A stretch of 64,000 nucleotides of DNA. Origin: Akkermansiaceae bacterium. GTDB lineage: Bacteria > Verrucomicrobiota > Verrucomicrobiia > Verrucomicrobiales > Akkermansiaceae. Every line of letters starts with the position of its first letter. Positions within the stretch are counted from its first letter, which is position 1. The translations under genes were made by a program, and so were the position numbers. The notes under the pieces were generated by a model, which made no database searches, was not told the origin of the DNA, and was given only the letters and a program-made list of their open reading frames with translations. The stretch is taken from NCBI GenBank assembly GCA_030725745.1, contig JANRFH010000057.1, positions 69,037-133,036 on the forward strand, in the 5' to 3' direction. Below, piece after piece: positions 1,436-49,506 of the stretch.

Positions 1436-2977
1436 TCAATGCCTGAAATGCCTGTGTCCGGTGAAGACCATCGCCATACCCGCAGCATCCGCAGCGGCGA
1501 TGACTTCCTCATCGCGCATCGAGCCGCCCGGCTGGATACAGGCAGTGGCGCCGGCATCGATGGCAGATTGCAGACCGTCGGCGAACGGGAACATCGCATC
1601 TGAGGCAACGATGCTACCCTTGAGATCGAGACCTGCTTCCTTCGCCTTCCAGATGGCAATCCGTGAGGAATCCACCCGGCTCATCTGGCCTGCTCCGATG
1701 CCCAAAGTGCGATCCGCCTGAGCGTAGACGATGGCGTTCGACTTCACGTTCTTCACGATCCTCCAGCCGAAACGCATCGCACGGAGTTCCTCCTCCGTCG
1801 GCGGGCGTTTCGTCACGACCTTGTTTTCCAGATCATCGAGACCCAGCGCGGTGTGGTCGCGATCCATGACCATCAAGCCGCCCGGACTGGAGCGAATGAC
1901 CGCTGCCTTCTGCGCAACGAGATAGCCGTCGTTCATTTTCATGAGGCGTAGGTTCTTCTTCTTCTGGAGAAGCGCCCTCGCATCTGCCTCAAACTCTGGA
2001 GCAATGATGACGTCGGTGAAAATTTCCGAAATCACGCGAGCAAGCTCAAGAGTGAGCGGGCGGTTGGTCACGATCACGCCGCCGAAGGGTGCTTGGCGAT
2101 CCGTCTCAAAGGCCTTTTTCCACGCTAGGCGCAGATCCTCGTCGTCCTGACCCACTCCGCATGGGTTCGTGTGCTTGAGGATGGCCACCGTAGGTCTAAC
2201 GAAATCTAGGATGAGATCTGCCGCAGCCTCGATATCGATGACGTTGGTGTAGCTGAGGCCTTTTCCCTGAAGCTTCGTGAAACAGCTTCCGAAATCTCCA
2301 TACATTGAGCATTTCTGGTGCGGGTTGTCGCCGTAGCGGAGCTCTTGGTCGAGCGGCAGACTGAGGGTGAAGGAAGCACCCGTTCCCTGGCGGGATTGGC
2401 CGAGGAAATTTGTGATTGCACCATCGTATTGCGATGTGCGGAGGAAAACTTTTACTGCGAGTTCTTCGCGCAGACCCTTGGTGGTATCGCCGCCGTTTTC
2501 ACGCATTTCTTCGAGCACGCGAGGGTAATCTTCCGGTGCGACGATGACGGTGACGTGCGAGTGGTTCTTCGCAGCGCTGCGCAGCATCGAGGGGCCACCA
2601 ATATCGATATTCTCAATCGCGTCTTCCAGCGTGACTCCTTCTTTCGCGACGGTTTCTTCGAAAGGATAGAGGTTCACCACCACAAGATCGATGGGAGGAA
2701 TGCCGTGCTTCTTCGCATCTGCCACATGCTGCTCGTCATCACGGCGGTGGAGGAGGCCACCGTGAACCATCGGGTGCAGGGTCTTTAAACGACCTTCGAA
2801 AAGCTCTGGAGCGCCAGTGTATTCGGAAACGTCAGTGACCTTGAGTCCTGCATCGCGCAGCGCCTTTGCGGTTCCTCCAGTGGAGAGCAGATCGACGCCC
2901 ATTTCCACAAGCCCCTCCGCAAATTCTACCAGACCTGTTTTGTCAGAAACCGAAAGCAACGCTCTTGAAATAGCCAT
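1436..2977 (-). CDS. purH: Bifunctional AICAR transformylase / IMP cyclohydrolase
   Basis: Catalyses the last two steps of de novo IMP synthesis in the cytoplasm. The 513-residue length is normal for PurH. The N-terminal MGS-like cyclohydrolase domain shows SVSDKTGL (10-17), [10 protein letters not shown] (60-69) and [15 protein letters not shown] (125-139). The transformylase domain shows LRYGDNPHQ (213-221), LSYTNVID and the catalytic Lys-His pair in KHTNPCGVG (268-276). The frame continues upstream to 3079, but the ATG at 2977 begins [13 protein letters not shown], which is where the family starts; the longer version adds 34 residues without family character. trmO lies 108 bases upstream on the same strand, so the two may be co-transcribed. 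Confidence 0.97.
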
Positions 2978-3085
2978 ATGATGTAAATTTGATAAACATC
3001 CGGCGGCAACCGCCGTGCCGGACATGCATCCCCGTATCCAACCCCCATCCGGCACGCAAGCGGGAATCCTTCCGGCCATCCCGCA

Positions 3086-3775
3086 TTATCCACTAATCGT
3101 TGATAACCAGCAGGTTCCATCAACAAAACGAAACCTAACATTTCTCCCACAAAGCGCCGCTCCGTAGGTTCTGCCCACCTCACCGCGCGCCGCAGGGCGT
3201 GGATCGAGCGCCAAGACTTCCAGTATCACCTGCTGGGAGCGTTCGTCGAGTGCACGGAAATCCTCTTCCGCACCCGGCTCGATCTCCACATTCACGCGCT
3301 CCGGGGATTTCCCTGCGTAGCCCCCGATGGCATCGGGCAATGATTCGGCGTAGGGCAGGTATGGCTTGATATCATAGATCGGCGTGCCATCGACCAGATC
3401 CACTCCAGAGAAATGCAAGATTGGCGGCTCACGACCTTCTTCCTTTTCCATGCCGATACGATCCAGCTTCACCAGCGAAAGCCCCAGCCCGTTTGGCCGG
3501 TAGGTCGAGCGGCTGGCAAAAACCCCCACCCGCTCGTTACCGCCCAGCCTCGGCGGCCTGACGGTTGGCTTCCAGCCCTCTTCCACCGTTTCGTGAAAAC
3601 CGAAGACCAGCCAAACATGCGAGAAGCCTTCGAGCCCTCGCACCGACTCCAGCGACCGGTATTTCTCGTCCAACTCCAGCTCACCCCAAGCACTCGGGCA
3701 CAATCCCGGCTGCCTCGGCACCCCGAATTTCCCTCCGAAACAGGTTTTAAGATATCCTATTGGCTCAATTTCCAT
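3086..3775 (-). CDS. trmO: tRNA (N6-threonylcarbamoyladenosine37-N6)-methyltransferase, TsaA/YaeB family
   Basis: A 229-residue TsaA-like beta-barrel protein. Family-defining stretches are IGYLKTCFGGKFGVPRQPG at the N-terminus, LEGFSHVWLVFGFHE near residues 48-62, and the S-adenosylmethionine-binding segment VGVFASRSTYRPNGLG (83-98). The C-terminal part, ending in a tail with PRPAARG, completes the TrmO architecture. TrmO methylates t6A37 of certain tRNAs reading ACY codons. It lies upstream of purH on the same strand and is preceded by the terminator of the next gene, so it probably begins its own transcript. Confidence 0.93.
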   Translation of the reverse strand: MEIEPIGYLKTCFGGKFGVPRQPGLCPSAWGELELDEKYRSLESVRGLEGFSHVWLVFGFHETVEEGWKPTVRPPRLGGNERVGVFASRSTYRPNGLGLSLVKLDRIGMEKEEGREPPILHFSGVDLVDGTPIYDIKPYLPYAESLPDAIGGYAGKSPERVNVEIEPGAEEDFRALDERSQQVILEVLALDPRPAARGEVGRTYGAALCGRNVRFRFVDGTCWLSTISG

Positions 3776-3780
3776 ATTCG

Positions 3781-3818
3781 TAAAAAAATACCCCCCGTTC
3801 CACAGGGAAACGGAGGGT
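3781..3818 (-). terminator. Rho-independent terminator of the large lipoprotein gene
   Basis: On the minus strand a 10-bp stem ACCCTCCGTT / AACGGGGGGT (one G-U wobble) with a short loop is followed by ATTTTTTTA. It sits just after the stop of the gene at 3842-6151 and just before trmO, separating the two co-directional genes. Confidence 0.85.
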
Positions 3819-3841
3819 GTTGAAGTTCATTTACTGGGCGA

Positions 3842-6151
3842 TTACTTCGTCTTGAAGTGCATCGAGTTACGGACGTAGCCGTTCTCCTTTTTCGCAGTCC
3901 ATGTCAGTGAGTCGAAATCACGGCAGGCTTCGATAATCTCCTTATATCCCTCCTTGTTGCGGTTAAAATCGCCAAGGTCATACTCGTTGGTGAAAATCGA
4001 ATCTTTGTTCTTTTCCACAACCGCCAGCATCATATCCGCGTAATCGGTGAGGGCATTGAAATTCACATAGAACTCCATGCCGTTTCCTGCTTCGCCACCA
4101 GCAGCGGCCTTGCCGATGAGATCCACTGCCTGGAGCTTCGAGGTCGATGCCGCGAACCAATCATCACTGACCGTCACGGAAGGCAGGAAGTCGTCTTGGA
4201 AGAATGGGAATGAGAAAAACCAAGTCGTCATGCCATCCTTATCGGAACTGATCGGCTTCTGCATTGGGATATCCACATCGAACATCTCACTCGCTTTAGA
4301 AAGGAGTGAAGAGATACTGCTATCCATCTGCTTCCAAGACTCAGCCAGCTTGCTACGATCCGTCACTGGCGCGACCCAAGTGATTCGCGGCACTTTTGCT
4401 TCATCCACAAGCTCCTGAGGGATACCGGGAACAGCTGGAGTAGCTCCTTTGAGATCGATCACGATCGCCGTTTCATCACCAATTCCATCAGAGAGTCCGC
4501 CACTGACCGCCTCATAGAGACCGATGACATCTGTGCGGAACTGTGTGTCGAAAATCTCTGCGAATTGCTTAGCTTCCAGAAGATCGCCGTCTTTGACCTC
4601 AATCTCGGAGAGCTTCATCGTAGATGCGTATAGCGTTTCGAAAATCGCCTCGAAGTATGCTGAAACCTTATCGTTGTAGTCAGCATCGCTAGCAGCATTG
4701 AAGAAAAGCACGTTGTCTCCGCTGTCGCCGAGGTGTGAGAGGCTCGTCTTCGCAGACCAGTCGAGAGATCCTTTGTCGTAACCACCAAATGTTTCGACTT
4801 TCAGACCTTCATCGGTGAAAGCCACCATGCCGAAATCGTTGGCACTTCCCAGAGACATCAGATCCTTTTCACGATCCGCAATCATCTGGAGTAATGCCTC
4901 AAGATCGCGGGTATCGCCCAGTGCCTCGCCACCTGCGATGCCATCGCGGATGCCGATCGCATAGCTTGCGAGACCACCAGCATCATCCATGATGCCTTCC
5001 CAGCCATCTTTACCACCGTAGGACAGAGCAAGCAACGGCTTATCCGCGAATGCATCCACGAAATTCAACTCATCTGTGCCGACGAGCGAGTCCTTCACAT
5101 CTGCTGCGAGCTTGAGATCGGCTTCGTCGCCGCCGATCATCGCCACTACATAGTTACCAATGGTTCCACTGACCACCACGAGGTTCTTCTTAGCGATAGC
5201 GTCCAGCAAGGCCGATACGGTCTCAGGCTTGAGATTCTCTTCCATGCTATCGCGATTTTCGGCGAGCGTTTCAGAGAGCTTTTCACCCAGCAGCTTGTAT
5301 CCGCTGAATGTAGCACCACCTGTCTCGAACTCGATCGGAACGGCCATTTCACCAGCCATAGCAAATATTCCCATACTGCCGCCTACGAGTTGAGCAGCCT
5401 GATCAAGCTCACCCTCCTTGGCGCGGAATGCGATGTAAAGGGGCGGCATCACCATATCCTTGAAAAGATTAACTCCGCCTTCGGGATCCTCGAGGAGATC
5501 CAAGAAAAATCCCTCATCTCCTATGGTGTTTTCGATAGCGTCTGTGAAATCATCTGGATCACCACTCTCTGCAAATTTCTGAGCAGCCTTGCCCAGTGCG
5601 AGTGCTTGGAAATACCCCATGCGCTTGTTCAGAGTCAGCAAATGACCAACCTGTTCGCCGGTCGGCTTGCCGAGGGCGAAAGTCACTTCCTGGCCGAGGA
5701 GCATCCATGGATCCGGCTCGCCACCTTGGGCTTCCAATTCCATCTCCATGTCATTTTCCTGCTCGGCATCACCCTCCTCCATCATGTCCTCTTCGATCAT
5801 TTCCTCTATGATCTCGTCTTCCATTTCCATACCCATGCCGGACTCCCTCTCGATAATCCCATACAACCTCAGTGCCTTGAGCTGCTCGGCGGCACCTTTT
5901 GTATCGTAGACTGAAAACACCACCTCAGTGTCTTGCGGCAGATACTGCGCAAAACCTACCTTGGCGGCTCGCTCTTCGTCGCTCAAACTCTGTGTAAGAG
6001 GAACTACCGTTTCCTTCACCTTGTCGACCACGGTATCGACGATGGATTTCTCCTCCCCCTTCTCCTCAGTGACACTAGGTTTCTCTTTGCAGGAAACGGC
6101 GCTGAGAATTACAATGGAACCGACACACCAAATGCTGTTTCGTATTTTCAT
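3842..6151 (-). CDS. Large acidic lipoprotein of unknown function
   Basis: A 769-residue protein with a type II signal peptide and probable lipidation cysteine at residue 21 (LSAVSC). Mature sequence starts with a Glu/Lys-rich linker. Residues about 103-145 form a striking Met/Glu-rich insert (MGMEMEDEIIEEMIEEDMM and following). The remainder looks like an alpha/beta extracytoplasmic protein with repeated motifs of the form DTEVVFSVYDT, NVLFFNAASD and MEFYVNFNALTDYADM, suggesting several related lobes; I recognise no enzyme motif. It has its own terminator and faces pdxH divergently. Codon use resembles its neighbours. It could be a Verrucomicrobia-specific surface or periplasmic protein; function is not inferred. 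Confidence 0.8.
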   Translation of the reverse strand: MKIRNSIWCVGSIVILSAVSCKEKPSVTEEKGEEKSIVDTVVDKVKETVVPLTQSLSDEERAAKVGFAQYLPQDTEVVFSVYDTKGAAEQLKALRLYGIIERESGMGMEMEDEIIEEMIEEDMMEEGDAEQENDMEMELEAQGGEPDPWMLLGQEVTFALGKPTGEQVGHLLTLNKRMGYFQALALGKAAQKFAESGDPDDFTDAIENTIGDEGFFLDLLEDPEGGVNLFKDMVMPPLYIAFRAKEGELDQAAQLVGGSMGIFAMAGEMAVPIEFETGGATFSGYKLLGEKLSETLAENRDSMEENLKPETVSALLDAIAKKNLVVVSGTIGNYVVAMIGGDEADLKLAADVKDSLVGTDELNFVDAFADKPLLALSYGGKDGWEGIMDDAGGLASYAIGIRDGIAGGEALGDTRDLEALLQMIADREKDLMSLGSANDFGMVAFTDEGLKVETFGGYDKGSLDWSAKTSLSHLGDSGDNVLFFNAASDADYNDKVSAYFEAIFETLYASTMKLSEIEVKDGDLLEAKQFAEIFDTQFRTDVIGLYEAVSGGLSDGIGDETAIVIDLKGATPAVPGIPQELVDEAKVPRITWVAPVTDRSKLAESWKQMDSSISSLLSKASEMFDVDIPMQKPISSDKDGMTTWFFSFPFFQDDFLPSVTVSDDWFAASTSKLQAVDLIGKAAAGGEAGNGMEFYVNFNALTDYADMMLAVVEKNKDSIFTNEYDLGDFNRNKEGYKEIIEACRDFDSLTWTAKKENGYVRNSMHFKTK

Positions 6152-25869: not shown

Positions 25870-27027
25870 GTGCCAACAACCGCCATCCTCGCCCTCGAAG
25901 ACGGACGCTGCTTCTCCGGAATTTCCTTTGGAGCCAGTGGAACCACCACCGGAGAAATCTGCTTCAACACCTCCATGACCGGTTACCAGGAGGTCATCAC
26001 AGATCCGTCCTACCGCGGTCAGATCGTCGCGATGACCTACCCGATGATCGGAAACTACGGGGTCAACCCCGAGGACAACGAGTCCGCCGGCCCACACATC
26101 CGCGCATTTGTCATCGGTGAACTCTGCGAAATCCCTTCGAACTGGCGCTCCACCGAAAGCCTGTCCTCCTACCTCGGCCGCCACGACATCCTCGGCATCG
26201 AAGGCATCGACACCCGCGCCCTCACGAAACACCTGCGCTCCCTCGGAGCCATGCGCGCCTGCGTCACCACCGAACTCTCCGAAGAGGAAGCCATCGCCGC
26301 AGCTAAAGCCTCCCCCTCCATGGAAGGCGCGGATTTCGTCAAAGAAGTCACAACCAAAGAAGCCTACAACTGGACGGAGGAATCCCGCCTCTGGACTCTT
26401 CCAAACGCCTCCATCGGCGAAACGGAAACCTACGCCGAGCTTCCTCCCGTCAAATACAAGGTCATCGCCATCGATCTCGGCCTGAAATACAACCAGCTCC
26501 GCATGCTCCGCCAAGCGGGCTTCGAAGTCGAAGTCGTCCCGGCCACCACCTCAGCAGCAGACATCCTCGCGAAAAATCCCGACGGCCTGTTCCTCACCAA
26601 CGGCCCCGGAGATCCGGCCTCACTCGGCTACATCCATGCGGAAATCAAAGAGCTCATCACCAAGCTCCCCACCTTCGGCATCTGCCTAGGCAACCAGCTC
26701 CTCGCCCACGCCTACGGCGGCAAAACCTTCAAACTCAAGTTCGGCCACCGCGGCGGCAATCAGCCCGTCAAAGATCTCCGCACTGGGAAAATTTCCATCA
26801 CCTCCCAGAACCACGGCTTCGCCGTAGATCCCGCATCCCTCCCCGACGACATTGAGGTCACCCACATCAACCTCAACGACAACACCGTCGAAGGCATGCG
26901 TCACAAAAAATACCCGGTCTTCTCCGTCCAATACCACCCCGAGGCCGCCCCCGGCCCCAACGACGCCGCCTACTTCTTCGAGGAATTCTCCACCCTAATC
27001 GAATCGAATAAGAAAAACCGCGAATGA
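25870..27027 (+). CDS. carA: Carbamoyl-phosphate synthase small (glutaminase) subunit
   Basis: Provides ammonia from glutamine to CarB for arginine and pyrimidine synthesis. The 385-residue protein starts at a GTG. The N-terminal domain contains LEDGRCFSG, GEICFNTSMTGYQEVITDPSY and IEGIDTRALTKHLR. The class I amidotransferase domain has LTNGPGDPAS, the nucleophile Cys in FGICLGNQ, and SVQYHPEAAPGP with the catalytic His-Glu. The last five residues, KKNRE, and the TGA stop are encoded by the left inverted repeat of a mobile element (27016-), so the native C-terminus appears to have been rewritten. carB is not in the window. The stop overlaps the GxxExxY start by 4 bases. Confidence 0.95.
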   Translation: MPTTAILALEDGRCFSGISFGASGTTTGEICFNTSMTGYQEVITDPSYRGQIVAMTYPMIGNYGVNPEDNESAGPHIRAFVIGELCEIPSNWRSTESLSSYLGRHDILGIEGIDTRALTKHLRSLGAMRACVTTELSEEEAIAAAKASPSMEGADFVKEVTTKEAYNWTEESRLWTLPNASIGETETYAELPPVKYKVIAIDLGLKYNQLRMLRQAGFEVEVVPATTSAADILAKNPDGLFLTNGPGDPASLGYIHAEIKELITKLPTFGICLGNQLLAHAYGGKTFKLKFGHRGGNQPVKDLRTGKISITSQNHGFAVDPASLPDDIEVTHINLNDNTVEGMRHKKYPVFSVQYHPEAAPGPNDAAYFFEEFSTLIESNKKNRE

Positions 27028-27462
27028 ACGCGAATGAACGCGAATTGATTCTGAAAGACGAAGTTTTCGCGCTTGTTTCCTGTGCTATGGAAATTTCCAA
27101 CGGATTGGGACACGGACTACTTGAGAAAAACTACGAGAACGCTCTCGCCGTCGAATTTTCGCACAGACAAATACCATTCGCACAGCAAGTTCGTTTCCCT
27201 GTTAGCTGGCGCAATGTCAAAGTCGGCGAGTTTATTCCCGATCTCATCGCTTACGAGCAGATCGTTGTTGAAACCAAAACCATAGACCGCATTACAGATC
27301 TCGAACGCGGCCAAGTCCTCAACTACCTTCGCATCACCAACCTCCCGGTAGCCATTATCCTCAATTTCAAAAAACCTCGTCTCGAATGGGAGCGCATTGC
27401 ACTCACTCAACGCTCCCAACCACCCACTCTTCATTAGCGTCCATTCGCGTTCATTCGCGGTT
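27016..27462 (+). mobile_element. Inverted-repeat element carrying a GxxExxY gene
   Basis: A 447-bp unit bounded by inverted repeats: left AACCGCGAATGAACGCGAAT continuing GAACGCGAATT, right (reverse complement) AACCGCGAATGAACGCGAAT continuing GGACGCTAAT. The first 21 bases are identical on both sides. The left end lies inside the 3' end of carA and the right end stops 9 bases before the purA start. The enclosed gene starts inside the left repeat and stops at the inner edge of the right one. No transposase is encoded and no target-site duplication is obvious. Gene-free cousins lie at 33362-33450 and 49355-49506. Confidence 0.8.
27024..27437 (+). CDS. GxxExxY protein, PD-(D/E)XK nuclease-like fold
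   Basis: A 137-residue protein. The family motif is GLLEKNY (Gly31, Glu34, Tyr37), and the nuclease-like core is FIPDLI (Asp73) plus VVETKTI (Glu83, Lys85), then GQVLNYLR and the closing IILNF, which matches the GxxExxY/PDDEXK_3 family. All putative catalytic residues are present. Its biological role is unknown. The first seven residues, MNANERE, are encoded by the terminal inverted repeat, and the ATG overlaps the carA stop as ATGA, so translation may be coupled to carA. The gene sits between carA and purA on the same strand. Base composition is lower in GC than both neighbours, consistent with transfer. Confidence 0.92.
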   Translation: MNANERELILKDEVFALVSCAMEISNGLGHGLLEKNYENALAVEFSHRQIPFAQQVRFPVSWRNVKVGEFIPDLIAYEQIVVETKTIDRITDLERGQVLNYLRITNLPVAIILNFKKPRLEWERIALTQRSQPPTLH

Positions 27463-27471
27463 AAATATCAT

Positions 27472-28740
27472 ATGAATACTGTAATTATCGGCCTCCAATG
27501 GGGCGACGAAGGAAAAGGCAAGATTGTCGATTACCTCACCGAAACCGCCGACGTCGTCATCCGCGGCCAAGGCGGCAATAACGCCGGCCACACGGTCATC
27601 GCCAAAGGCACGAAATACGTCCTTCACCTCCTGCCCTCCGGCATCCTCTGGGATGACAAGGTCAACGTGATCGGCAACGGCGTCGTCGTCGATCCCATCG
27701 GCCTCTGCGTCGAGATCGCCCGCATCGAAGGCCAGGGCGTCGTCATCTGCCCGGAAAAACTCCTCATATCCGACCGCGCCCACGTCGTCCTCCCTTTCCA
27801 CAAAGAGCTCGATGCCGCCCGCGAAATCTCCCTCGGCGACCAGAAGATCGGCACCACCAAGCGCGGCATCGGCCCCGCCTACGCGGACAAGGTAAACCGC
27901 TGTGGTCTTCGTATGGCAGACCTGCTAGACCGACCCTTCGCCGAAAAACAGATCACGCGCCGTGTTTCCGAAGTGAATGAGATCCTTGAGAAATACGAGC
28001 TTCCCACCTTCACTGCCGAGGCTGTGATCGAGGAAACCTACGCCGCCTTCGAGCGCCTACGCCCTCACGTCACCAACACCATCCCCGTCCTTCACAAGGC
28101 GTGGAAGGCAAAGCAAAATCTCCTCTTCGAGGGCGCACAAGGCACCCTGCTCGACATCGATTTCGGCACCTACCCTTTCGTCACTTCCTCGAACACCACC
28201 GCAGGAGGCTCCACCACCGGCACCGGCCTCCCGCCGACCGCCATCGAAGCCGTCATCGGTGTCTGCAAGGCCTACACCACCCGTGTCGGCTCCGGCCCCT
28301 TCCCCACCGGCGATGAAGGCCTTTCCAAATATCTCCACGACCTCGGCCGTGAATTCGGTGCCACCACCGGTCGCGCACGCGGCTGCGGCTGGCTCGATAC
28401 CGTCCTGCTCCGCTTCGCCTGCATGGTGAACGGCGTCACTGACCTCGCCGTCACCAACGTCGACGGCCTCGACGAATACGATGAGCTGAAAATCTGCACC
28501 GCCTACGATGTCGATGGCACCATCCACGAGCTACCACCCGCCGACCGCTCATTCTGGGATCGCGCAAAACCCGTTTACGAAACCCTCCTCGGCTGGAAGG
28601 AAGACACCACCGCCTGCACGGAATACGATCAGCTTCCGGAAAACGCCAAAGCCTACCTCAGTCGCCTTTCCGAACTCTGCGACGCACCCATCGCCTTCGT
28701 AGGTGTCGGCCCCGACCGGGTACAGACATTGAAACGGTAA
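27472..28740 (+). CDS. purA: Adenylosuccinate synthetase
   Basis: Converts IMP and aspartate to adenylosuccinate using GTP, the first committed step to AMP. The 422-residue protein begins MNTVIIGLQWGDEGKGKIVD (P-loop-like GDEGKGK with catalytic Asp and the NNAGHTV motif following). Further blocks are GTTKRGIGPAYADK, FEGAQGTLLDIDFGTYPFVT and the GTP-binding TNVDGLDEYDELKICTAY. The start ATG at 27472 lies 9 bases after the inverted repeat of the GxxExxY element, so the element now forms its 5' leader. It is downstream of carA, grouping pyrimidine and purine genes. Confidence 0.97.
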   Translation: MNTVIIGLQWGDEGKGKIVDYLTETADVVIRGQGGNNAGHTVIAKGTKYVLHLLPSGILWDDKVNVIGNGVVVDPIGLCVEIARIEGQGVVICPEKLLISDRAHVVLPFHKELDAAREISLGDQKIGTTKRGIGPAYADKVNRCGLRMADLLDRPFAEKQITRRVSEVNEILEKYELPTFTAEAVIEETYAAFERLRPHVTNTIPVLHKAWKAKQNLLFEGAQGTLLDIDFGTYPFVTSSNTTAGGSTTGTGLPPTAIEAVIGVCKAYTTRVGSGPFPTGDEGLSKYLHDLGREFGATTGRARGCGWLDTVLLRFACMVNGVTDLAVTNVDGLDEYDELKICTAYDVDGTIHELPPADRSFWDRAKPVYETLLGWKEDTTACTEYDQLPENAKAYLSRLSELCDAPIAFVGVGPDRVQTLKR

Positions 28741-28743
28741 ATT

Positions 28744-28756
28744 CATCATATTGATG
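28744..28756. promoter_or_regulatory. Palindrome upstream of vapB, possible toxin-antitoxin operator
   Basis: CATCATATTGATG is a perfect 13-bp palindrome in an AT-rich leader between purA and the vapBC pair. VapBC complexes usually bind palindromes near their own promoter. Binding here is inferred from position only. Confidence 0.35.
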
Positions 28757-28802
28757 CAATTTTTATCTTGTTTTGATGATTTTTGAGGATTATCGTCACC
28801 AC

Positions 28803-29042
28803 ATGAGAATCACTGTAGACATCGAGGAAGACATCCTCACCGATTTGCTCGAAATCACCGGGGACAAGGCCAAAAGCCCAGCCGTTGCCAAAGCAGTCAC
28901 TGAATTCGTCCGGCGGAAAAAAGCCAAGGAGTTCGGCAGGATGATCCGGGAAGGGGAGTTTGACTACCCCGCCCCGCCTAACGACTCCAACGGACTCGAT
29001 CCCGCGAATCCCATTCCGCCCCTTTATCCGGAGACAAAATAA
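28803..29042 (+). CDS. vapB: VapB-type antitoxin
   Basis: A 79-residue protein starting MRITVDIEEDILTDLLEITG, the ribbon-helix-helix-like N-terminus of DUF2191/VapB antitoxins. KSPAVAKAVTEFVRRKKAKEF forms the second helix pair. The C-terminal part (GEFDYPAPPNDSN and the Pro-rich tail) would wrap the toxin. The frame is open upstream to 28773, but ATG 28803 gives the family start. TAATG couples it to the PIN toxin gene with a 1-base overlap. Confidence 0.88.
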   Translation: MRITVDIEEDILTDLLEITGDKAKSPAVAKAVTEFVRRKKAKEFGRMIREGEFDYPAPPNDSNGLDPANPIPPLYPETK

Positions 29043-29467
29043 TGGTTTTGGTGGATTCTTCAGCGTGGATCGAGAGCCTACGCCGGGACGGTGACATGCG
29101 CGTGAAACTCGCTGTCGAGGGACTCCTGGAAGCCTATGAAGCGCAGTGGTGCACCCCCGTCCGTCTTGAAGTTCTAGGTGGTGCCCGAAAAAACGAGCGG
29201 GCGCGTTTGGGGCATCAATTTTCTGTGATTCCCTACCGTATCTGCAAGGAAGACGATTGGGAACGCGCAGTTGCACTTGCCTGGAGATTGCGGGGCGAGG
29301 GTTTGAACATCCCTTGGCTCGATGTGCTCATTGCCTCCATCGCGATTCATGACAACATCCGCCTTTACGCCATCGACAAGCATTTCATCGAGGTTGCAAA
29401 AATCGCGCCCCTGCTCCTCTATCAACCCGGATACGGAGGCAGCTACAACGATCACCAGGGCGGCTAG
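29042..29467 (+). CDS. vapC: VapC-type PIN-domain toxin
   Basis: A 141-residue PIN ribonuclease. Acidic active-site residues are visible as Asp5 in VLVDSSAWIE, Glu in VRLEVLGG, Asp in IPWLDVLIAS and Asp in LYAIDKHF. VapC toxins cleave tRNA or rRNA when not bound by VapB. The gene overlaps vapB by one base. The active site is complete, so the pair looks functional. The C-terminus (YQPGYGGSYNDHQGG) is longer and more polar than usual. Confidence 0.9.
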   Translation: MVLVDSSAWIESLRRDGDMRVKLAVEGLLEAYEAQWCTPVRLEVLGGARKNERARLGHQFSVIPYRICKEDDWERAVALAWRLRGEGLNIPWLDVLIASIAIHDNIRLYAIDKHFIEVAKIAPLLLYQPGYGGSYNDHQGG

Positions 29468-29478
29468 CAACCACTACA

Positions 29479-29508
29479 TTGAAGGTTGAGAATTGAAATT
29501 TGAGAGTT
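29479..29508 (+). repeat. Heptamer array before uppS
   Basis: TTGAAGG TTGAGAA TTGAAAT TTGAGAG TT: four clear seven-base units of pattern TTGARRN ending 1 base before the GTG start of uppS. The final GAGAG could serve as a weak ribosome-binding site. Confidence 0.75.
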
Positions 29509-29509
29509 A

Positions 29510-30199
29510 GTGAAACACATCGCAATCATCATGGACGGCAATGGCCGTTGGGCGAAGGAACGTGGACTCCCCCGTGCCGAAGGTCATCGCGCAGGAGCGG
29601 AATCCGTACGCGAAGTCATGGACGCCTGCAAGGAGCTAGGTGTGAAGTATCTCACCCTCTACGCCTTTTCTTCGGAAAACTGGAACCGCCCCGAGGCTGA
29701 AATCGAAGCCCTGATGACTCTACTCGACACTTTCCTCGATGAAAAAGCCGAGGAACTCGACAAGCAGAACGTCCGCCTCAAAGCCATCGGCCAGATCGAG
29801 CGCTTGCCACAATCCACTCGTGACCGGCTCGAACGAATCCAGGCACACACTGCAAAAAACGACTCCATGACCCTCGTCCTCGCCCTCTCATACGGCGCCC
29901 GCGAGGAAATCACCCACGCAGCAAAATCCATCGCCCAAGCTGCCATCGACGGCAAAATTTCCCCCGAAGACATCACCAACGATCTCTTCGCGCAGCACCT
30001 CTACACCGCAGACATCCCGGATCCCGACCTGCTCATTCGCACTTCCGGCGAAATGCGCATTTCCAATTTCCTCCTCTGGCAAATCTCCTACTCGGAAATC
30101 GTCATCGTGAAAAAAATGTGGCCGGACTTCCGACAAGGCGATCTCTTCGCCGCCGTCGAGGAATTCAACAAACGCCACCGCCGATTCGGAGCGCTTTAG
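29510..30199 (+). CDS. uppS: Undecaprenyl diphosphate synthase (cis-prenyltransferase)
   Basis: Makes the C55 lipid carrier for peptidoglycan and O-antigen synthesis. The 229-residue protein starts at GTG 29510: MKHIAIIMDGNGRWAKERGL with catalytic Asp9 and the RAEGHRAGAE block, then LTLYAFSSENWNRP, and the C-terminal DLLIRTSGEMRISNFLLWQ. Length is normal. The start lies directly behind a heptamer array and no other ribosome-binding site is visible. It converges with the RND operon 10 bases after its stop. Confidence 0.96.
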   Translation: MKHIAIIMDGNGRWAKERGLPRAEGHRAGAESVREVMDACKELGVKYLTLYAFSSENWNRPEAEIEALMTLLDTFLDEKAEELDKQNVRLKAIGQIERLPQSTRDRLERIQAHTAKNDSMTLVLALSYGAREEITHAAKSIAQAAIDGKISPEDITNDLFAQHLYTADIPDPDLLIRTSGEMRISNFLLWQISYSEIVIVKKMWPDFRQGDLFAAVEEFNKRHRRFGAL

Positions 30200-30209
30200 T
30201 CATTACTCC

Positions 30210-33200
30210 TCACTGCATCGGCTTTTTATCCAATCCCAGATAAGCGCGGAGAAATTTCCGGATATCGTTGATGATAATGAACAACACCGGCAGCAGGAAC
30301 AGGGTGATCACCGTCGCGAAAACGATCCCGAATGCCAGCGAAGCCGCCATTGGTTTGAGGAACTGAGCCTGGACTTCCTTTTCCATGAGCAAGGGTGCTA
30401 GCCCGAAGAAGGTTGTTAGCGAGGTGAGTAGGATCGCGCGAAAACGATCCACTCCAGCCCGCCTGACAGCCACATCAAGAGAATGCCCTTCGTCCTGAAG
30501 GTCGTTCACCGCGCAGACCAGCACGAGCGAATCGTTCACCACCACCCCCGACAGCGCCAGGATGCCGAAGACCGACAGGATCGAGATCGGAATACCCATG
30601 ATGTAGTGACCCATAAGTGCTCCGATGATTCCGAAAGGAATGACTGCCATGATGATAAGCGGCTTCAGATAACTCCGCAGCGGAATCGCGATGAGCACGT
30701 AAATAAAAACGATGGAAAACGCGAATCCCTTCAGAAGCGATCCGAGTGATTTTTTCCGCTCCTCTACCTCGCCACTTTCCGTGATCGAAATCGAAGGATG
30801 TCTTGCTAGGAACTCAGGGAAAAACTCTTCTTCCAAACGTTCGGTGATCAGATCCGAGGAAGTCTTCGATTTGTCCACCGAGGCCTCAATGGTCACTACC
30901 CGCGTATTATCGATGCGCTCGATGGAGGCAAGAGCTTCAGAAAATTCCGTATCGGCGATCACGGTGAAAGGCACCGCTGACCCATCCGGCGCACGCACCC
31001 GCATCTCGCGCAGCGTTTCCAATGATCCGCGCTGTTCTTCCGGATACCTCACCATCACGCGCAGCTCATCACGCCCACGCTGCACACGCTGCGCCTCGCG
31101 TCCATAGAAGGCATCACGCACTCCCAGCGCCAGATCCCTGCGAGTGAAACCCGCCGCCTCACCCACAGGCGTAATCGAATAAACGATCTCCGGCTTCCCG
31201 GATTTAAAGGAATCATTCACATCGAACGTCCCCGGATAGGTGGCGACTTGCTCAGCCACTTCCTTCGCCGCGCGTTCTAGCTCCTCTAGATTATCGCTCT
31301 CCAGATTGATCGCCAAATCCCCTCCCGGCGGCCCGGCGGTCGCGTTAAATATCAGCGAGCGCGCTCCCGCCACCTCACCCACCGCTTTCCTCCAGTCCTT
31401 CACGATTTGATCAGTCGGAAGAAACTCCCTCTCGGTAGATCGAGTCAACTCCGTGACCACCGATGAACTCGTGTTCGAACTCGCGGAAATCTGAATCTCA
31501 GTGAAAGGGTTGTGACCGTATTTTTCACGATACTGCTTACCCAGCTTCCTCGCCTCATCCGCCATGCGCTCGGACTGGCTGTGCAGGTATTCTACCGATT
31601 GTCCCTGCTCGAGATTTAGGTTCGCACTGACGTTGTCGTTGTAGATATTAGGAAAAAACACGAAGCGCAACTGACCTGCGGGAAACAAGCCGATCACCAA
31701 AATGAACACGGCGACAAACGACGCCAGCACCGCATAGCGCCACGGGATCGCCCAGGCAATGGCCGGTTTGTAGCATTTTTCCACGAAGTCATTAAGTCCA
31801 CTGGACACCCCCCTCTGTAGTCTAACAAAAGACTTAGTAACTGGATTCTTCGCCTTCTTGTGAACATTGAGGTGCGCCAAGTGAGCGGGTAGGATCAGCT
31901 TCGATTCAATCAGCGAAAAGATCAGACAAAAGATCACTGTGGTCGCGATCTGACCGAAGACATTGCCCAGCCGTCCGCTGACTTGAGTCAGTGGTAGAAA
32001 GGCCGCGATCGTGGTAATCACCCCGAAGGTCGCCGGTGTCACGACCCTACTCACCCCACTGACGGTTGTTGCGATGGCATTTTCATCGCCATCCCCCTTC
32101 GCTTCTTTTTCAGAATAAATAGACTCACCGATGACAATCGCATCGTCCACCACGATGCCGAGCACCACGAGGAAACCGAACGCGGAGATGACGTTCACCG
32201 ACATATCGACACCTGGTATCTGGAAGAGAGTCACCGCACCTGCCAAAGAAACGGGAATGCCCAGCGCCACCCAGAAGGCCAGCCGTAGATTCAGGAATAG
32301 CATCAGAATTCCCAACACGAGCGCAACACCGATTACCCCGTTCTTGCCCAGCAGCACGAGCCTGTCTCGGATATTCGTCGAGCCATCGAGCCAGCTCGCG
32401 ATCTTCACGCCCTCAGGCAAATCCTTAAATTCCTCCACCACCTTCCTCGCCTGCTTCACTGCGTCGATGATGTCATCCTGCCCCTCGGTGACGACTTTCA
32501 GGCTGGTTGTCGCCTCACCACGGAAACGGTTTAAAAATTTCTGATCCACGAAGGCATCCCGCACCTGCGCCACATCCCTCACGAAGATCCGCGTGCCGTC
32601 CGCGTTTGTCCTTACCGGGATGTTTTCGAAATCTGCCTTCCGGTATGCCTGATCCCTCGCCCGCAGGGAAATATCACCCCGATCCGACCTCACATCGCCC
32701 CCGCCCAGATCGAGCGAATTGTTAGAAACCGCATTTGCCACTTCCTCAAAGGTCAGCCCATACACTCTGAGCTGCTCCTCGGATGGCTCGATGGAAATCT
32801 CGTAATCCCGAGATCCGAACGTCTCCACTAGCGAAATCGCCGGCTGTGCCAGCAACCTGTCTCGCAGTTCTCGCGCGGTCTCCTTCCTGAGCGCTTCGTT
32901 TCCCGAGCCATAGACCTCGATCCAAATGACCTGGTTGCTGCGCTTGTTTTCCTTCACCACCGGCTTCTCCGCCTGCTCCGGCAAGGTCGGGATCGCATCC
33001 ACCTGCACCTTCACATCATCCAGTAGCTTCTCGATGGAATACTTCTCGATAGCCTCCACCGTGACCGTGGCGAGGCTGTCGGTGCTTTCCGAACGGATCT
33101 CCTCGATGCCGCTCACCGACTCCAGAGACTCCTCGATGCGGATGGAAACACCACGCTCCACGTTCTCCGGAGTGCCCCCACGTATTGGCACCGTGATAGT

Positions 33201-33344
33201 CACGGATTCTGCCGCAAAGGCAGGAAAGCCTTCTTTCCTAACTGTCAGAGAGGAAAAAATTCCCGCCGCCAAGATGGAGAACATCAGAATGTTCGCCACG
33301 ACCGGATTGGACGCGAACCAGGTGATGAAAGGATGTTTGTTCAC
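30210..33344 (-). CDS. RND-family multidrug/solute efflux permease
   Basis: A 1044-residue inner-membrane pump of the HAE1/AcrB class: one N-terminal helix, a large periplasmic loop, six helices, a second loop and five helices. The proton-relay aspartates are present in GIVVDDAIVIGESIY (TM4). The second half repeats the pattern with LSGVVVNDSLVLVCAVNDLQ. It is the last gene of a minus-strand operon OMF-adaptor-permease. Substrate is unknown. Between it and the adaptor gene lies a gene-free inverted-repeat element. Confidence 0.95.
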   Translation of the reverse strand: MNKHPFITWFASNPVVANILMFSILAAGIFSSLTVRKEGFPAFAAESVTITVPIRGGTPENVERGVSIRIEESLESVSGIEEIRSESTDSLATVTVEAIEKYSIEKLLDDVKVQVDAIPTLPEQAEKPVVKENKRSNQVIWIEVYGSGNEALRKETARELRDRLLAQPAISLVETFGSRDYEISIEPSEEQLRVYGLTFEEVANAVSNNSLDLGGGDVRSDRGDISLRARDQAYRKADFENIPVRTNADGTRIFVRDVAQVRDAFVDQKFLNRFRGEATTSLKVVTEGQDDIIDAVKQARKVVEEFKDLPEGVKIASWLDGSTNIRDRLVLLGKNGVIGVALVLGILMLFLNLRLAFWVALGIPVSLAGAVTLFQIPGVDMSVNVISAFGFLVVLGIVVDDAIVIGESIYSEKEAKGDGDENAIATTVSGVSRVVTPATFGVITTIAAFLPLTQVSGRLGNVFGQIATTVIFCLIFSLIESKLILPAHLAHLNVHKKAKNPVTKSFVRLQRGVSSGLNDFVEKCYKPAIAWAIPWRYAVLASFVAVFILVIGLFPAGQLRFVFFPNIYNDNVSANLNLEQGQSVEYLHSQSERMADEARKLGKQYREKYGHNPFTEIQISASSNTSSSVVTELTRSTEREFLPTDQIVKDWRKAVGEVAGARSLIFNATAGPPGGDLAINLESDNLEELERAAKEVAEQVATYPGTFDVNDSFKSGKPEIVYSITPVGEAAGFTRRDLALGVRDAFYGREAQRVQRGRDELRVMVRYPEEQRGSLETLREMRVRAPDGSAVPFTVIADTEFSEALASIERIDNTRVVTIEASVDKSKTSSDLITERLEEEFFPEFLARHPSISITESGEVEERKKSLGSLLKGFAFSIVFIYVLIAIPLRSYLKPLIIMAVIPFGIIGALMGHYIMGIPISILSVFGILALSGVVVNDSLVLVCAVNDLQDEGHSLDVAVRRAGVDRFRAILLTSLTTFFGLAPLLMEKEVQAQFLKPMAASLAFGIVFATVITLFLLPVLFIIINDIRKFLRAYLGLDKKPMQ

Positions 33345-33361
33345 TTGGTAGATGGGAATTC

Positions 33362-33450
33362 AACCGCGAATAGACGCGAATGGACGCTAATAATGGGCAC
33401 GGAGAAATTCATGAAAAAGAATTCGCGTTCATTCGCGTTCATTCGCGGTT
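33362..33450. repeat. Gene-free inverted-repeat element inside the RND operon
   Basis: Left arm AACCGCGAATAGACGCGAAT plus GGACGCTAAT, right arm (reverse complement) AACCGCGAATGAACGCGAAT plus GAACGCGAAT; about 25 of 30 positions pair across a 29-base centre. It belongs to the same repeat family as the ends of the GxxExxY element. The last codons and stop of the adaptor gene (TANERE, TGA) are inside its right arm. Confidence 0.85.
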
Positions 33451-34577
33451 TGGTCTTTCTCCGCCGGTTTCACCTTCATCCCCGTCCGGAAATTACTCAG
33501 TGGCCGCGTCACAATGTTTAGCTCGCCTGTTTCAGCTTCTAGCGGTCTCACAAAAGCCTGCCCGTCATCTGTGTGAATGCGTTCCGCCTCCACTCTCTTG
33601 AGTTTCCCCTCTCCGTCCATGACCCAGACATAACAGTCTTCCACAAACGCGGCCTCAGGAATTTTGTAAGAGTCCTTGATCGGTTTCGCTGTGATGCTCG
33701 CATTCGCAAAAATTCCCACCGGCAGTGGTGATTTTCCCTCTGCAAAAGGATCGATCACTTCGGCTACTGCAAAAATCACTTGGTTCTGCTGATCCACCGT
33801 CGGCTCCATGCGAACAAGGGTAGCCTCCCAAGCTTCGCCAGGCTTGAGCGGACTCGTCAGCGTTGCTTTCGCGGGTATGTCCACACGTACCGCCTGCTCA
33901 GCCGTCAGCGGCAGGCGTATCTCCACTTTCTCCGTAGAAACCAATGTCCCGAGTGAGGTCTGCGAGGATGCTTGGTTGCCCGGAGAGGCGCTGCGTGCCG
34001 TGATGATCGCCGCAAATGGAGCTCTCACTTCCGTGCGTTCCAAGTCCGCGCGCGCCTTGTCGATCTGTGCCTGCACCGCCTCCATATCCGCCTTCGCCGC
34101 CGCGAGTTGTGGCTTCCGCAGGACGAAATCCGATGCCGTCGCAAGCTCCCTGCCAGATGCCTTCCAATCCCCCGCCGCCTGCTCCGCCCGGATCTCTTCT
34201 TCGGCGTAGGTGCGCTCAGCCACCGTCAGCGCGGACTCTTGTTGTGCCAAAGCCGCCACATAATCCGTCGGATCGATTTTCACCAAGACGTGTTCGGTAT
34301 CTACCGTCTCACCGACGCGGAATTTCGGCGAAACATAGTTGATCTTTCCACTCACCTGCGGCGTCAGTCCCGTTTCAAAATAGGCAGTGACTGTGCCGTA
34401 GCTATTGACCGGCGGCGCATGTTCCTGCGGAGAAACCTTCGCCAGATCAACGATCGGCACCACTGGTGGTGGCTGCTTGCTCTCCGGCTTCGGCTTGAGT
34501 GAGACGAGTATTTTAAAGCCGACGAAGGCCAACAAGATGATGCCCAGCGGGATGATGATTTTGAGAGCGACTTTCAT
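33429..34577 (-). CDS. RND periplasmic adaptor (membrane fusion protein, HlyD family)
   Basis: A 382-residue adaptor anchored by an N-terminal helix (LKIIIPLGIILLAFVGFKIL). The biotinyl-lipoyl halves are TGLTPQVSGKINYVSPKFRVGE, split in two by a coiled-coil hairpin, and ERTEVRAPFAAIITARSASPGNQ-type sequence; beta-barrel and membrane-proximal domains follow. It links the permease to the outer-membrane factor encoded immediately upstream. The last six residues, TANERE, are encoded by an inverted repeat at 33421-33450, so its natural C-terminus has been changed. Confidence 0.92.
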   Translation of the reverse strand: MKVALKIIIPLGIILLAFVGFKILVSLKPKPESKQPPPVVPIVDLAKVSPQEHAPPVNSYGTVTAYFETGLTPQVSGKINYVSPKFRVGETVDTEHVLVKIDPTDYVAALAQQESALTVAERTYAEEEIRAEQAAGDWKASGRELATASDFVLRKPQLAAAKADMEAVQAQIDKARADLERTEVRAPFAAIITARSASPGNQASSQTSLGTLVSTEKVEIRLPLTAEQAVRVDIPAKATLTSPLKPGEAWEATLVRMEPTVDQQNQVIFAVAEVIDPFAEGKSPLPVGIFANASITAKPIKDSYKIPEAAFVEDCYVWVMDGEGKLKRVEAERIHTDDGQAFVRPLEAETGELNIVTRPLSNFRTGMKVKPAEKDQTANERE

Positions 34578-34583
34578 GTTCGG

Positions 34584-35975
34584 TCAGTAGGCTTTCCCCA
34601 GCGCAAGCGCGAGTGCGACACGGTTCTGGTAGCGGAGATTTTTCAGATTGATCAGGCTTTCTTCTGCTGCGAAGCGGCGGCGTTTCGTCTCCAACACATC
34701 GAGGATCTCTATCAGGCCTGAGTCAAAATTTCTCAAGCTCCGCTCCTCCGCACTCTTTGCAGCTTCCAGCGCACTCGCCGTCGCATCTTCCTGTTTTTTC
34801 AAATACTGCTCGGAGCCCAATGCATTCTCCACCTCGCGGAAGGCATTCAGCACCGTCGAGCGATAACTCGCCAGCGCCTGCTTTGCCCGCGCATTCGCCG
34901 CGCCAAGCTCAGCACGCCTACTACCGCCATCGATGATAGGTGCACTCAGCCCTGCTGCCACAGACCACACGGAAAAATTAGATTTCGCCAAATCTCTCAA
35001 CGCCGAAGATTGCTGACCACTACTGGCAGTGAGAGTAAAACTTGGAAACAGATCACGGTGGGCGACTTTCACATTCGAATCCGCCGCTAAAATCCGCGCA
35101 TACGCGGCATAGATATCAGGCCTGACCTCCAGCAAGGTCGAGGGGATGCCGGATGAAACGCTTTTCTTCAGGGAAGGCCATTCCGTAGCGCTTTTCCCTG
35201 CATCCGGGTAGCTTCCTGTTAGCGTCGCAAGCTGACGCGCCGCCTGATCCCGGTTGTCCTTCTGCGCATTAATAGCAGCCCGCGCGTTTTCCACATCCGT
35301 TTTGGCAAGGCTCACCTCACCGAAATCCGCCGTCCCCAGCTCAAAACGCCGATCTACCAGATCAAAAGTGCTCTGAAACGACTCCAATCGCCGCTGCGCC
35401 AAATCCTGCAATTTCTCTGCCGCCACAAGAGAAAAATACGCCTGCGCCGTCTGCGCGGCGATCGACTGGCTAGCCGCCGCGTAATCCGCATCTGCTGCTA
35501 GGTAGCTCGCCTCCGATGCCGCAACCCCCGCACGAATTCGCCCCCAGACATCCACCTCCCACTGGGCGTCCAGCGAAGCACCATATCTTTCGGTGATAAA
35601 CGAGCCCGCATTGAATCCCGCTCCAGAGGAATTGTTCTTCGACCGCGACCCACTGCCATTCGCAGTTAAAGACGGGAAAAGCCCCGCACGTGCGCTTCGA
35701 GTATTGAAGCCAGCCTCCTCCAGCCTCGCTGCAGCCTCCGCAAGATCGGGATTTTTCTCTTGTGACAGGCTAATCTGCTTCTTCAGATCGCCACTCCCGA
35801 AGACATCGCCAAGACTCCCAACAAGCTCCGGAACTGCTGCTTTCCCGCTATTATAATCCGATGGCACATCCAATCCATTGTTCCGGCCGGATGCTTTTGA
35901 ACCGGGAAGAGATGGGCATGCAACGAGGAACAAGCTCGCCCCAAAGGGAAGTATCAATGCAATCAGCCGTGCCAT
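34584..35975 (-). CDS. RND outer-membrane factor lipoprotein (NodT/TolC-like)
   Basis: A 463-residue outer-membrane channel lipoprotein: signal peptide and lipobox LFLVACPSLPG, then paired helical hairpin repeats such as NPDLAEAAARLEEA and SLAKTDVENARAAINAQ and the periplasmic VRPDIYAAYARILAADSNV block that mark the NodT family. The frame extends nine codons upstream, but ATG 35975 gives MARLIALILPFG, a proper lipoprotein start. It is the first gene of the OMF-adaptor-permease operon, 6 bases before the adaptor. Confidence 0.92.
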   Translation of the reverse strand: MARLIALILPFGASLFLVACPSLPGSKASGRNNGLDVPSDYNSGKAAVPELVGSLGDVFGSGDLKKQISLSQEKNPDLAEAAARLEEAGFNTRSARAGLFPSLTANGSGSRSKNNSSGAGFNAGSFITERYGASLDAQWEVDVWGRIRAGVAASEASYLAADADYAAASQSIAAQTAQAYFSLVAAEKLQDLAQRRLESFQSTFDLVDRRFELGTADFGEVSLAKTDVENARAAINAQKDNRDQAARQLATLTGSYPDAGKSATEWPSLKKSVSSGIPSTLLEVRPDIYAAYARILAADSNVKVAHRDLFPSFTLTASSGQQSSALRDLAKSNFSVWSVAAGLSAPIIDGGSRRAELGAANARAKQALASYRSTVLNAFREVENALGSEQYLKKQEDATASALEAAKSAEERSLRNFDSGLIEILDVLETKRRRFAAEESLINLKNLRYQNRVALALALGKAY

Positions 35976-36150
35976 AATTTCACTAATGAGTGGATGACTC
36001 ACCCGCCCTCCTTGGCGGCACCCTAAACGCAGATAAGCGTTTTCAAACGATTTTTTGGATAAAACCGCTCATCACCTGCGTAGAAATCTCCATTCGTATA
36101 CTTGCCAACCAGCGACCGAACCTGTAATCCATCTAAACCTTAAAAAACCA

Positions 36151-37770
36151 ATGACAAAAACAAACGCAATAGCACCGAACGCAAACCGGCTCCTATGGGC
36201 TGGATTCACCGCCATTCTCGCCGCCGGAGTTGGTTTCGGCGTCCGTGGAGGCATCTTCGCAAACTGGGCACAAGAGTTCAACTTCTCCGGCGTGCAGCTG
36301 GGAGCCATCGGCGGCGCCGGCTTCACCGGATTCTGCTTCGGAATCGTCATTGGCGGCGTTGTCGTCGATAAAATCGGATACGGAAAACTTGTTCTCGCGG
36401 CTTTCCTTTTCCACATCATCTCTGCTTTTGTCACCATCGGTGCCTCAGAAGGAATGGCCTCCGCCACAGCATACCAATTGCTTTTCTGGGGCACCTTCAT
36501 TTTCGCCCTCGCAAACGGAACCCTTGAAGCGGTCTCCAATCCCTTGGTTGCCACCCTTTATCCAGACAATCGCACCCACTACCTGAACATCCTCCACGCA
36601 TCGTGGCCGCTCGGAATGGTCTTCGGCGGACTCATCGGCTGGACTCTCGGCTCTGGCGACAACGCATGGGATTGGAGATGGCAGCTAGCCCTCTACATCG
36701 TGCCAACCATTGCCTACGGTATCATGTTCCTCGGCCAGAAATACCCGAAGTCGGAAGCTTCCGAAAAGGGACTGAAAATCGGCGAAATGTTCAAGGACGT
36801 CGGACTACTCAGCGGCGGTGTCGTCTGCTTCATGCTCTACCTTTTTACAAAGGGCACACTCGCACCGTTTTTCGATGAAGCTTCGAATGTCCCGACAATG
36901 ATCTCGGCTCTTTTCGCCGTCGTCCTACTCGGCATCATCGGAAACATTACGAAATTCAGCATCGGCCACTGGCTCCTCTTCGTCCTCTTCATCGCACACG
37001 CACTCATCGGCGCGGTGGAACTCGGCACCGACGGCTGGATCCAGAACATCACCGGAGCAATCCTCGATCCTACCCAAGGCAAAATCCTGTTCGTGATCAC
37101 ATCCCTTCTGATGTTTGGCCTCCGCTTCTGTGCACACTTCATCGAGAAAAAGGTCGGGCTCAACCCCATCGGACTTCTCCTTGTCTGCTCACTTCTCGCC
37201 GTCCTCGGCCTGAACTTCGTCGCAGCGGTCAATAGCTTTGGTGCAGCCGTCGGCGCACTCGCCGTCTACGCCGTAGGAAAAACCTTCTTCTGGCCAACGA
37301 TGCTAGCCATCGTTGGCGACCGCTTCCCTGCCACGGGCGCAGTCGCCATGAGCCTCATGGGTGGGGTCGGCATGATGTCCGCCGGACTCATCGGCTCCCC
37401 CGGTCTCGGCTACTTCAAGGATCGTCTCGCCGCAGAGGCTCTCCAAGAAAAGAGCCCTGCTCTTTATGAAGAATTCAAGAGCGATGGAGATTCAAGCAAG
37501 TTCCTTGCTTTTGAAGCAGTCCAACCAATCAATCCGCAAACACTCGAAGAGGCCAAAACAACCAAGAAAGCTGAGCGTTCAGAAGCTCAGCAAACCATCG
37601 TGGATGCAGATATCGAAGGAAACCGGGACACTCTCCGGGTCGACTCCTTCATCCCGGCGGCAATGGCGGTCATATTCCTGTTCCTTTTCCTCTATTTCCG
37701 GAAAATTGGCGGATATAAACCTTTGAGCATCGAAAAGTTGACCGGCGGAGTCCAAGGCCCCGTCGCATAA
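36151..37770 (+). CDS. Major facilitator superfamily transporter
   Basis: A 539-residue polytopic protein with about 12 helices in two halves. It starts [19 protein letters not shown] and [29 protein letters not shown], the MFS motif A region with Asp-Lys. Later blocks are [26 protein letters not shown] and [26 protein letters not shown]. This subfamily is common in Verrucomicrobia and Planctomycetes but its substrate is not known to me. A long soluble insert near residues 430-500 (Gln/Glu-rich) separates the last helices. A strong terminator follows. Confidence 0.88.
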
Positions 37771-38547: not shown

Positions 38548-38560
38548 TTCGCTTCGCTCG

Positions 38561-38665
38561 AAACTTTAAATCTTAAACTTTAAACCCTAAAGTTTAAGCC
38601 CGGTGCCGAGAGCACTCCGTCCAAACAAGTCTTCCTTGGAGTTTAAAGTTTAGAGTTTAAAGTTT
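38561..38665. repeat. Inverted pair of heptamer arrays
   Basis: On the minus strand 38598-38561 reads TTTAGGG TTTAAAG TTTAAGA TTTAAAG; on the plus strand 38641-38665 reads GTTTAAA GTTTAGA GTTTAAA GTTT. The two seven-base arrays face each other around a 42-base GC-richer centre. The second ends 5 bases before the ATG of the SNase-like gene. Confidence 0.75.
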
Positions 38666-38670
38666 CCTGC

Positions 38671-49354: not shown

Positions 49355-49506
49355 TTTCAACCGCGAATCAACGCGAATTTACGCCAATCCACTACATGCA
49401 GGGCTTCGTGAAATTATTTTTTTTGTGAATCAAATTTGATTTTGCCCACAGAATATTTTCACGAAACCCCAGATTAGCGGCCATTCGCGTTGATTCGCGG
49501 TTGAAA
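49355..49506. repeat. 152-bp gene-free nested palindrome of the GxxExxY-end family
   Basis: Outer arms TTTCAACCGCGAATCAACGC GAAT... (49355-49388) and its reverse complement (49473-49506) agree in about 30 of 34 positions. Inside, GCTTCGTGAAATTAT and ATATTTTCACGAAAC form a second, inner inverted repeat around an AT-rich centre, so the whole unit would fold into a long hairpin. It fills most of the 316-bp gene-free stretch 49238-49553. Confidence 0.85.

Follow-up and report, generated by a model that had tools for sequence, protein, structure and literature searches.

A Gene-Free Inverted Repeat, Probably a Mobile Insertion, between the Adaptor and Permease Genes of an RND Operon Shares Its Arms with a GxxExxY Nuclease Gene

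In REPIN-RAYT systems, hairpin-forming REP doublets go together with REP-associated tyrosine transposases, each repeat type being associated with a distinctive enzyme gene of its own (PMC3116915, PMC8266576). Bacterial MITEs such as QMITE1/2 (PMC5896051) and RU/ERIC (PMC2759123) are described as short, gene-free, repeated and hairpin-forming, with target duplications, and the C-terminus of a gene is sometimes extended by them. For example, in Coxiella enhC it depends on an indel whether the last 33 residues come from QMITE2 (PMC5896051), and the enterobacterial gene ECA3499 has lost its normal stop to an RU-1 located at its end (PMC2759123). The GxxExxY family (TIGR04256, PDDEXK_3, PF13366) is named, without further account, in the literature passages found. 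Here we describe an inverted repeat within 64,000 nucleotides of DNA from an Akkermansiaceae bacterium (this whole stretch is referred to as the window). The family to which this repeat belongs shares these MITE features, including the extended C-terminus, and differs from the bacterial MITEs in that no parent transposon was seen among the copies examined and its arms also flank a nuclease gene that keeps one genomic position. A published description of these repeats was not found among the titles and abstract openings searched, which covered few subscription journals.

The repeat lies in an operon in the order outer-membrane protein, adaptor and permease, between the adaptor and permease genes (Table 1). 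It consists of 30-bp arms, 87% complementary, around a 29-base centre, and the arm entered by the adaptor gene has exactly the sequence of the left arm in the copy at 27016, which carries a GxxExxY gene; the arms, their spacing and their kinship with the GxxExxY element are as the preliminary description had them. The same holds for the end of the adaptor, whose residues TANERE and TGA stop are arm sequence. A 20-base arm pattern, allowing up to three mismatches, matches the window 8 times, whereas 100 shuffles give an expectation of 0.03 and in no case as many as 8, and the transcribed strand of the RND-operon repeat is predicted to fold at −40.6 kcal/mol (z −6.68; 0 of 200 shuffles equally stable). 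A scan of positions 26000-36500 against Rfam at the gathering score gave 0 matches. In the GxxExxY copy, carA ends NRE-stop within the left arm, and the same arm encodes the N-terminus (NANERE) of the GxxExxY protein. This protein belongs to its family by score (TIGR04256, 119.1 bits with a curated cut-off of 35; PDDEXK_3, PF13366), and its closest named records come from a Verrucomicrobiaceae MAG and a Prosthecobacter MAG; the RND-operon copy has no gene. A further inverted repeat at 38560-38666, built of AAACTTTAAA-like units, is separate and unrelated in sequence to the adaptor-repeat family.

Table 1. Positions of the RND operon, the repeat within it and related copies in the window
Feature	Position	Strand	Remark
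Efflux outer-membrane protein gene	34584..36002	-	first in operon
RND periplasmic adaptor gene, 382 aa	33429..34577	-	ORF ends ...EKDQTANERE
RND permease gene, 1044 aa	30210..33344	-	
Gene-free inverted repeat	33362..33450	-	89 bp arm to arm
Arm entered by adaptor gene	33421..33450	-	AACCGCGAATGAACGCGAATGAACGCGAAT on minus strand
Centre, 29 bases	33392..33420	-	
Permease-side arm	33362..33391	-	
Adaptor TGA stop codon	33429..33431	-	within arm
6-bp outer end AGACCA	33451..33456	-	placed by family geometry
17-bp outer end GAATTCCCATCTACCAA	33345..33361	-	placed by family geometry
GAGAA, candidate left target copy	33457..33461	-	4/5 with right one; putatively GTGAA minus TG
GTGAA, candidate right target copy	33340..33344	-	contains permease GTG start
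Same arms around GxxExxY (PD-(D/E)XK) gene	27016..27462	+	between carA and purA
Third copy, gene-free	49355..49506	+	82 nt between arms

Short and non-coding, with inverted repeats near its ends and family members at many unrelated sites, the 89-bp repeat behaves like a MITE in these respects. We considered whether it could be a deletion derivative of the GxxExxY copy and set this aside: the arms agree closely, and the 29-base centre is without clear similarity to the gene copy. Among ten comparisons of the centre with the gene copy, the best result, reached by two of them, was equalled by 7 of 200 shuffles; clear similarity was likewise not found between the centre and four gene-free copies.

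The arms are dispersed throughout the host genome (3.42 Mb, 57 contigs), where a core pattern with up to one mismatch has 50 + 38 matches, grouping into 34 places, and the reversed control has 0 + 0; within the genus, the arm pattern is matched in 50 of 73 genomes. From the places listed in eight other genomes, in which at least 81 further places were found, 80 regions were taken, two of them (L214 and L217) containing no 30-base arm at five mismatches or fewer. Both arms are present at 42 of these 81 places, and 18 of the 42 measure exactly 142 bp arm to arm. We scanned for identical 5-mers at all offset pairs up to 44 outside the arms in 64 paired copies (2 of 66 were excluded for short flanks). 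Exact 5-bp duplications occur at 6 to the left and 17 to the right of the arms in 7 of the 64 copies and at the mirror offset in 3, the next-best offset also giving 3, and the ten exact 5-mers, turned one way, all read NTNAN. With 4/5 or better identity, 12 + 6 of 65 copies have such duplications (one, L168, was added by hand, and the RND-operon copy is one of the 18), against a mean of 1.24 (sd 1.17) over all offset pairs; a few of the 18 are probably due to chance. The shared offsets and their duplications therefore indicate that the element extends 6 and 17 bp past its arms and duplicates 5 bp. The 142-bp copies have outer ends of the CCTAGA and CCTCTTAAAG type. In the RND-operon copy, the 5-mers at the family offsets are GAGAA and GTGAA, 4/5 identical; compared with the ends of the 142-bp copies, its 6-bp outer end does not match the CCTAGA type, and any match of its 17-bp outer end is weak or absent.

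In the host genome, a second unit was observed in five copies (L061, L062, L072, L073 and L080; contigs C1, C22 and C41), in which the same arms lie inside CAGGGCT...AGCCCT ends around a conserved centre, with exact 9-bp duplications in three copies and one mismatch in a fourth. The 5-bp and the 9-bp units are difficult to account for together by a single mobilising enzyme. Fixed-length short duplications, here 5 bp and, for the CAGGGCT unit, 9 bp, are usual for DDE transposases, and the copies could thus be ordinary MITEs moved by the DDE transposase of an insertion sequence with matching ends, the arms being subterminal and GxxExxY irrelevant to movement. Ends lying 6 and 17 bp outside the arms, and the presence of the same arms inside a second kind of ends, would fit such an origin; yet no transposase-bearing version with the family ends was seen among the 115 places fetched. 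The sole long copy (L168, G018, 2453-4182) was examined as a candidate autonomous parent and rejected: its arms are 1.7 kb apart with CTGAA on both sides, and it is a 142-bp-type copy, a MITE, interrupted by an insertion sequence. The inner insert has TTGAAAATG on both sides and a 463-aa transposase-like ORF, which we take to resemble an ISL3-type transposase.

A genome of the same genus, G052, in which the adaptor is 69% identical, has the operon without the repeat, as the empty-site comparison proposed in the preliminary description called for, although in a different species. The last residues of the G052 adaptor are ...GMKIKKAE, and the TGA that follows them overlaps the GTG start of the permease gene as GTGA; the junction reads ...AAGAAAGCCGAGTGAACAAG, in which GTGAA is the stop/start overlap. 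The 8 kb around the G052 adaptor contain no arm, despite 52 arm hits elsewhere in that genome. Compared with G052, the window has 115 extra bases between the matching GA and GTGAAC, and the final nine codons of its adaptor, KDQTANERE, run past the G052 adaptor end. On the permease side, homology resumes as CCAAGTGAACA in the window and CCGAGTGAACA in G052, which puts the boundary a few bases at most from the point, 17 bp outside the arm, at which the element is predicted to end. The left junction is not exactly alignable, since at 69% adaptor identity G052 represents another species. Related adaptors end KKAE (G052), AGDLSE (G004), QSHGN (G068) and PEADAK (G029), each followed by its stop, and no arm at seven mismatches or fewer was present in the 7.5-16 kb inspected around each of these four genes; among them, none ends in TANERE without the repeat, a case that would have spoken against capture of the adaptor end. 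G004 was not retained as an empty site: the adaptor has a natural end there, but no permease follows it, so that only the adaptor end is informative. In this genome (L093), the outer-membrane protein and adaptor genes are kept, and a convergent gene instead of the permease gene follows the adaptor gene.

The gene-level empty site in G052, the dispersed copies and the target duplications of the family together argue that the 89-bp repeat is very probably a non-autonomous, gene-free mobile insertion in the RND operon, in line with the MITE-like derivative first proposed. The insertion would have occurred after the lineage of the window split from that of G052, at a GTGAA formed by the overlapping adaptor stop and permease start. 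It probably duplicated 5 bp, so that both genes would initially have kept their own stop and start. A later loss of TG from the left copy would then have removed the adaptor stop and extended the frame by nine codons to the TGA of the arm; the exact insertion point and the two-base loss are those suggested by the pair GAGAA and GTGAA. Survival of the operon may be more simply explained by the duplicated overlapping stop/start than by any property of the arms, and taken alone the insertion is an ordinary event, in which a gene junction received a small mobile repeat that lends a stop codon.

The hairpin between the adaptor and permease genes is very stable, and the G052 genes overlap as GTGA, a type of junction that serves translational coupling. 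The repeat might thus be a selected regulatory device that uncouples adaptor and permease translation or alters mRNA stability, and hence pump stoichiometry. We regard this as improbable, because the operons of G052, G068 and G029 lack the repeat, as does the surrounding of the G004 adaptor, and because the same repeat occurs at 33 other places of the host genome.

The main interest may lie in the repeat family and its association with a nuclease and less in the single operon insertion. Inverted arms of short repeated units, clearly above shuffled flanks, are present at 52 of 58 GxxExxY loci, a set made up of 30 of the highest-scoring loci, 11 of 12 from a second list and 17 picked by hand, with one locus cut by a contig end (L131) left out; seven of the hand-picked loci were chosen for known type-A arms, and without these the count is 45 of 51. 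The arm sequence follows the nuclease clade, with 12 changes on the nuclease tree against a shuffled mean of 30.6, where arm labels were assigned by eye for 44 of 50 rows and orthologues at the same locus inflate the clustering. Loci of one arm type mostly have common flanking DNA across genomes, as judged by eye, with an exception (L096) in which type-B arms lie at another locus. Two arm types, A (AACCGCGAAT) and B (CGCCAAG), were compared. All nine type-A loci checked (27016-27462 in the window, L124, L125 and L143-L148) lie between carA and purA, eight of them distinct, as L124 and L146 have the same protein and flanks; in G001 and G004 the type-A gene is fragmented. Gene-free doublets are also formed by type-B arms, which are paired in 14 of the 20 regions fetched, four in the host genome. 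Arm families at further GxxExxY loci (L094-L123, L126-L135 and L150-L159) include CGCCAAG, CACGGAGG, CAGGATT, CACTGAT and CGCAGAT among others, and the loci extend as far as an Acetobacteraceae MAG.

Furthermore, the number of arms follows the presence of the matching nuclease across the 73 genomes. The median of type-A arm hits is 10.5 with the matching gene (18 genomes) and 2 without it (p 1.9e-5, kinship ignored), and that of type-B arm hits is 2.5 with the matching gene (20 genomes) and 0 without it (p 3.1e-4, kinship ignored). When the arm pair that flanks the gene is not counted, p is still 2.4e-4 for type A, for which the orthologue limit of 60% identity was set after the list had been viewed and excludes G057 at 59%. 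When each arm type is compared with the other nuclease, p is 0.34 and 0.029 (kinship ignored), type-A arms correlating weakly with the type-B gene at 0.029. No nuclease orthologue at 60% identity was found in G052, G054 and G022, despite 52, 26 and 23 arm hits, and target duplications around GxxExxY genes had no common offset. An origin as DDE-moved MITEs leaves both the arms flanking GxxExxY genes and the tracking of arm number with the matching nuclease unexplained, and we consider it rather unlikely.

These associations suggest that the GxxExxY PD-(D/E)XK nuclease, whose gene has its fixed place between carA and purA, most likely recognises the arms, and that it would move or keep the gene-free copies in trans, much as RAYTs are believed to do for REPINs. 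The nuclease as the mobilising agent is inferred from arm and gene distribution. We assign a probability of about 0.5 to the account as a whole, comprising a mobile insertion at GTGAA, the loss of TG and a GxxExxY nuclease acting on the arms in trans. By analogy, the system may work like REPIN-RAYT. Here too, inverted doublets that fold as hairpins are dispersed, each repeat type has one enzyme gene flanked by that repeat (type A at one locus), and the repeat type follows the enzyme clade. In contrast to REPIN-RAYT, a PD-(D/E)XK nuclease takes the place of the Y1/HuH transposase, and the arms consist of 10-bp units and go with 5-bp target duplications. Because the defining Y1 (HuH) enzyme feature fails, we do not file the system as a REPIN-RAYT member. 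Mobilisation by a RAYT was also considered and rejected, as type-A arms were found at 0 of the 10 Y1 transposase loci of the host genome in the stretches read, within about 1.5 kb. Four of these 10 loci (L240, L241, L242 and L247) have inverted repeats of their own, so that true REP-RAYT-like sets may coexist in the host genome.

More generally, and more tentatively, GxxExxY proteins might be resident, vertically inherited nucleases of widespread hairpin-repeat populations, with clade-specific arms of 9-10-bp units and gene-free doublets copied or inserted in trans at NTNAN, resembling REPIN-RAYT with PD-(D/E)XK in place of Y1. Connecting GxxExxY with a set of arms, a constant genomic position and a scattered hairpin population brings together two observations that had stood apart, a nuclease whose role is unexplained and repeats of ~10-bp units that likewise lacked an explanation, as one testable system, in which GxxExxY could possibly represent a repeat-mobilising enzyme of a new type.

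Finally, the preliminary description had proposed that the arms are pre-adapted to end any reading frame they enter, so that insertion does minimal damage. The arm entered by the adaptor gene indeed reads NRE-stop, TANERE-stop and PRMNANERE (open) in its three frames; this reading holds for that arm and not for the family as a whole. Among 181 arms, an arm closes a mean of 1.10 frames, compared with 1.00 in 200 composition shuffles (range 0.88-1.13), and 500 redraws of the variable dinucleotides give a mean of 1.08, with 157 redraws as high or higher. The NRE frame is closed in 54% of these arms, the TANERE frame in 36% and the PRM frame in 20%; 33 of the 181 close no frame and 2 close all three. 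Furthermore, 10 of 16 other GxxExxY arm sequences are stop-free in every frame. Selection for stops in several frames as a way of limiting insertion damage could be read from the seven of 115 places, representing each of the three frames, at which both a C-terminus and the stop after it are encoded by an arm, but closed frames do not exceed the two null models and most of the other arm sequences have no stop, and pre-adaptation of the arms is thus highly improbable. That genes capture a stop from the element follows from its arrival close to their ends, for which the RU and QMITE2 cases offer precedents.

A home-made codon-usage gene caller placed a gene stop within the element in 11 of the 115 places and missed one more (L068), where a 311-aa gene ends STANERE. 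The arm-encoded ends make up seven of these twelve stop-containing places: NRE in one (CarA), TANERE (RND adaptor and L068) or TANGRQ (L204, L238 and L221) in five and PRMDANERQ in one (L213). At L071, L198, L209, L219 and L235 the stop lies in the centre or at the element edge and is not arm-encoded. L204 (G002) and L238 (G024) represent one element at a position shared by two genomes, and both genes end TANGRQ, which indicates that a captured C-terminus can persist.
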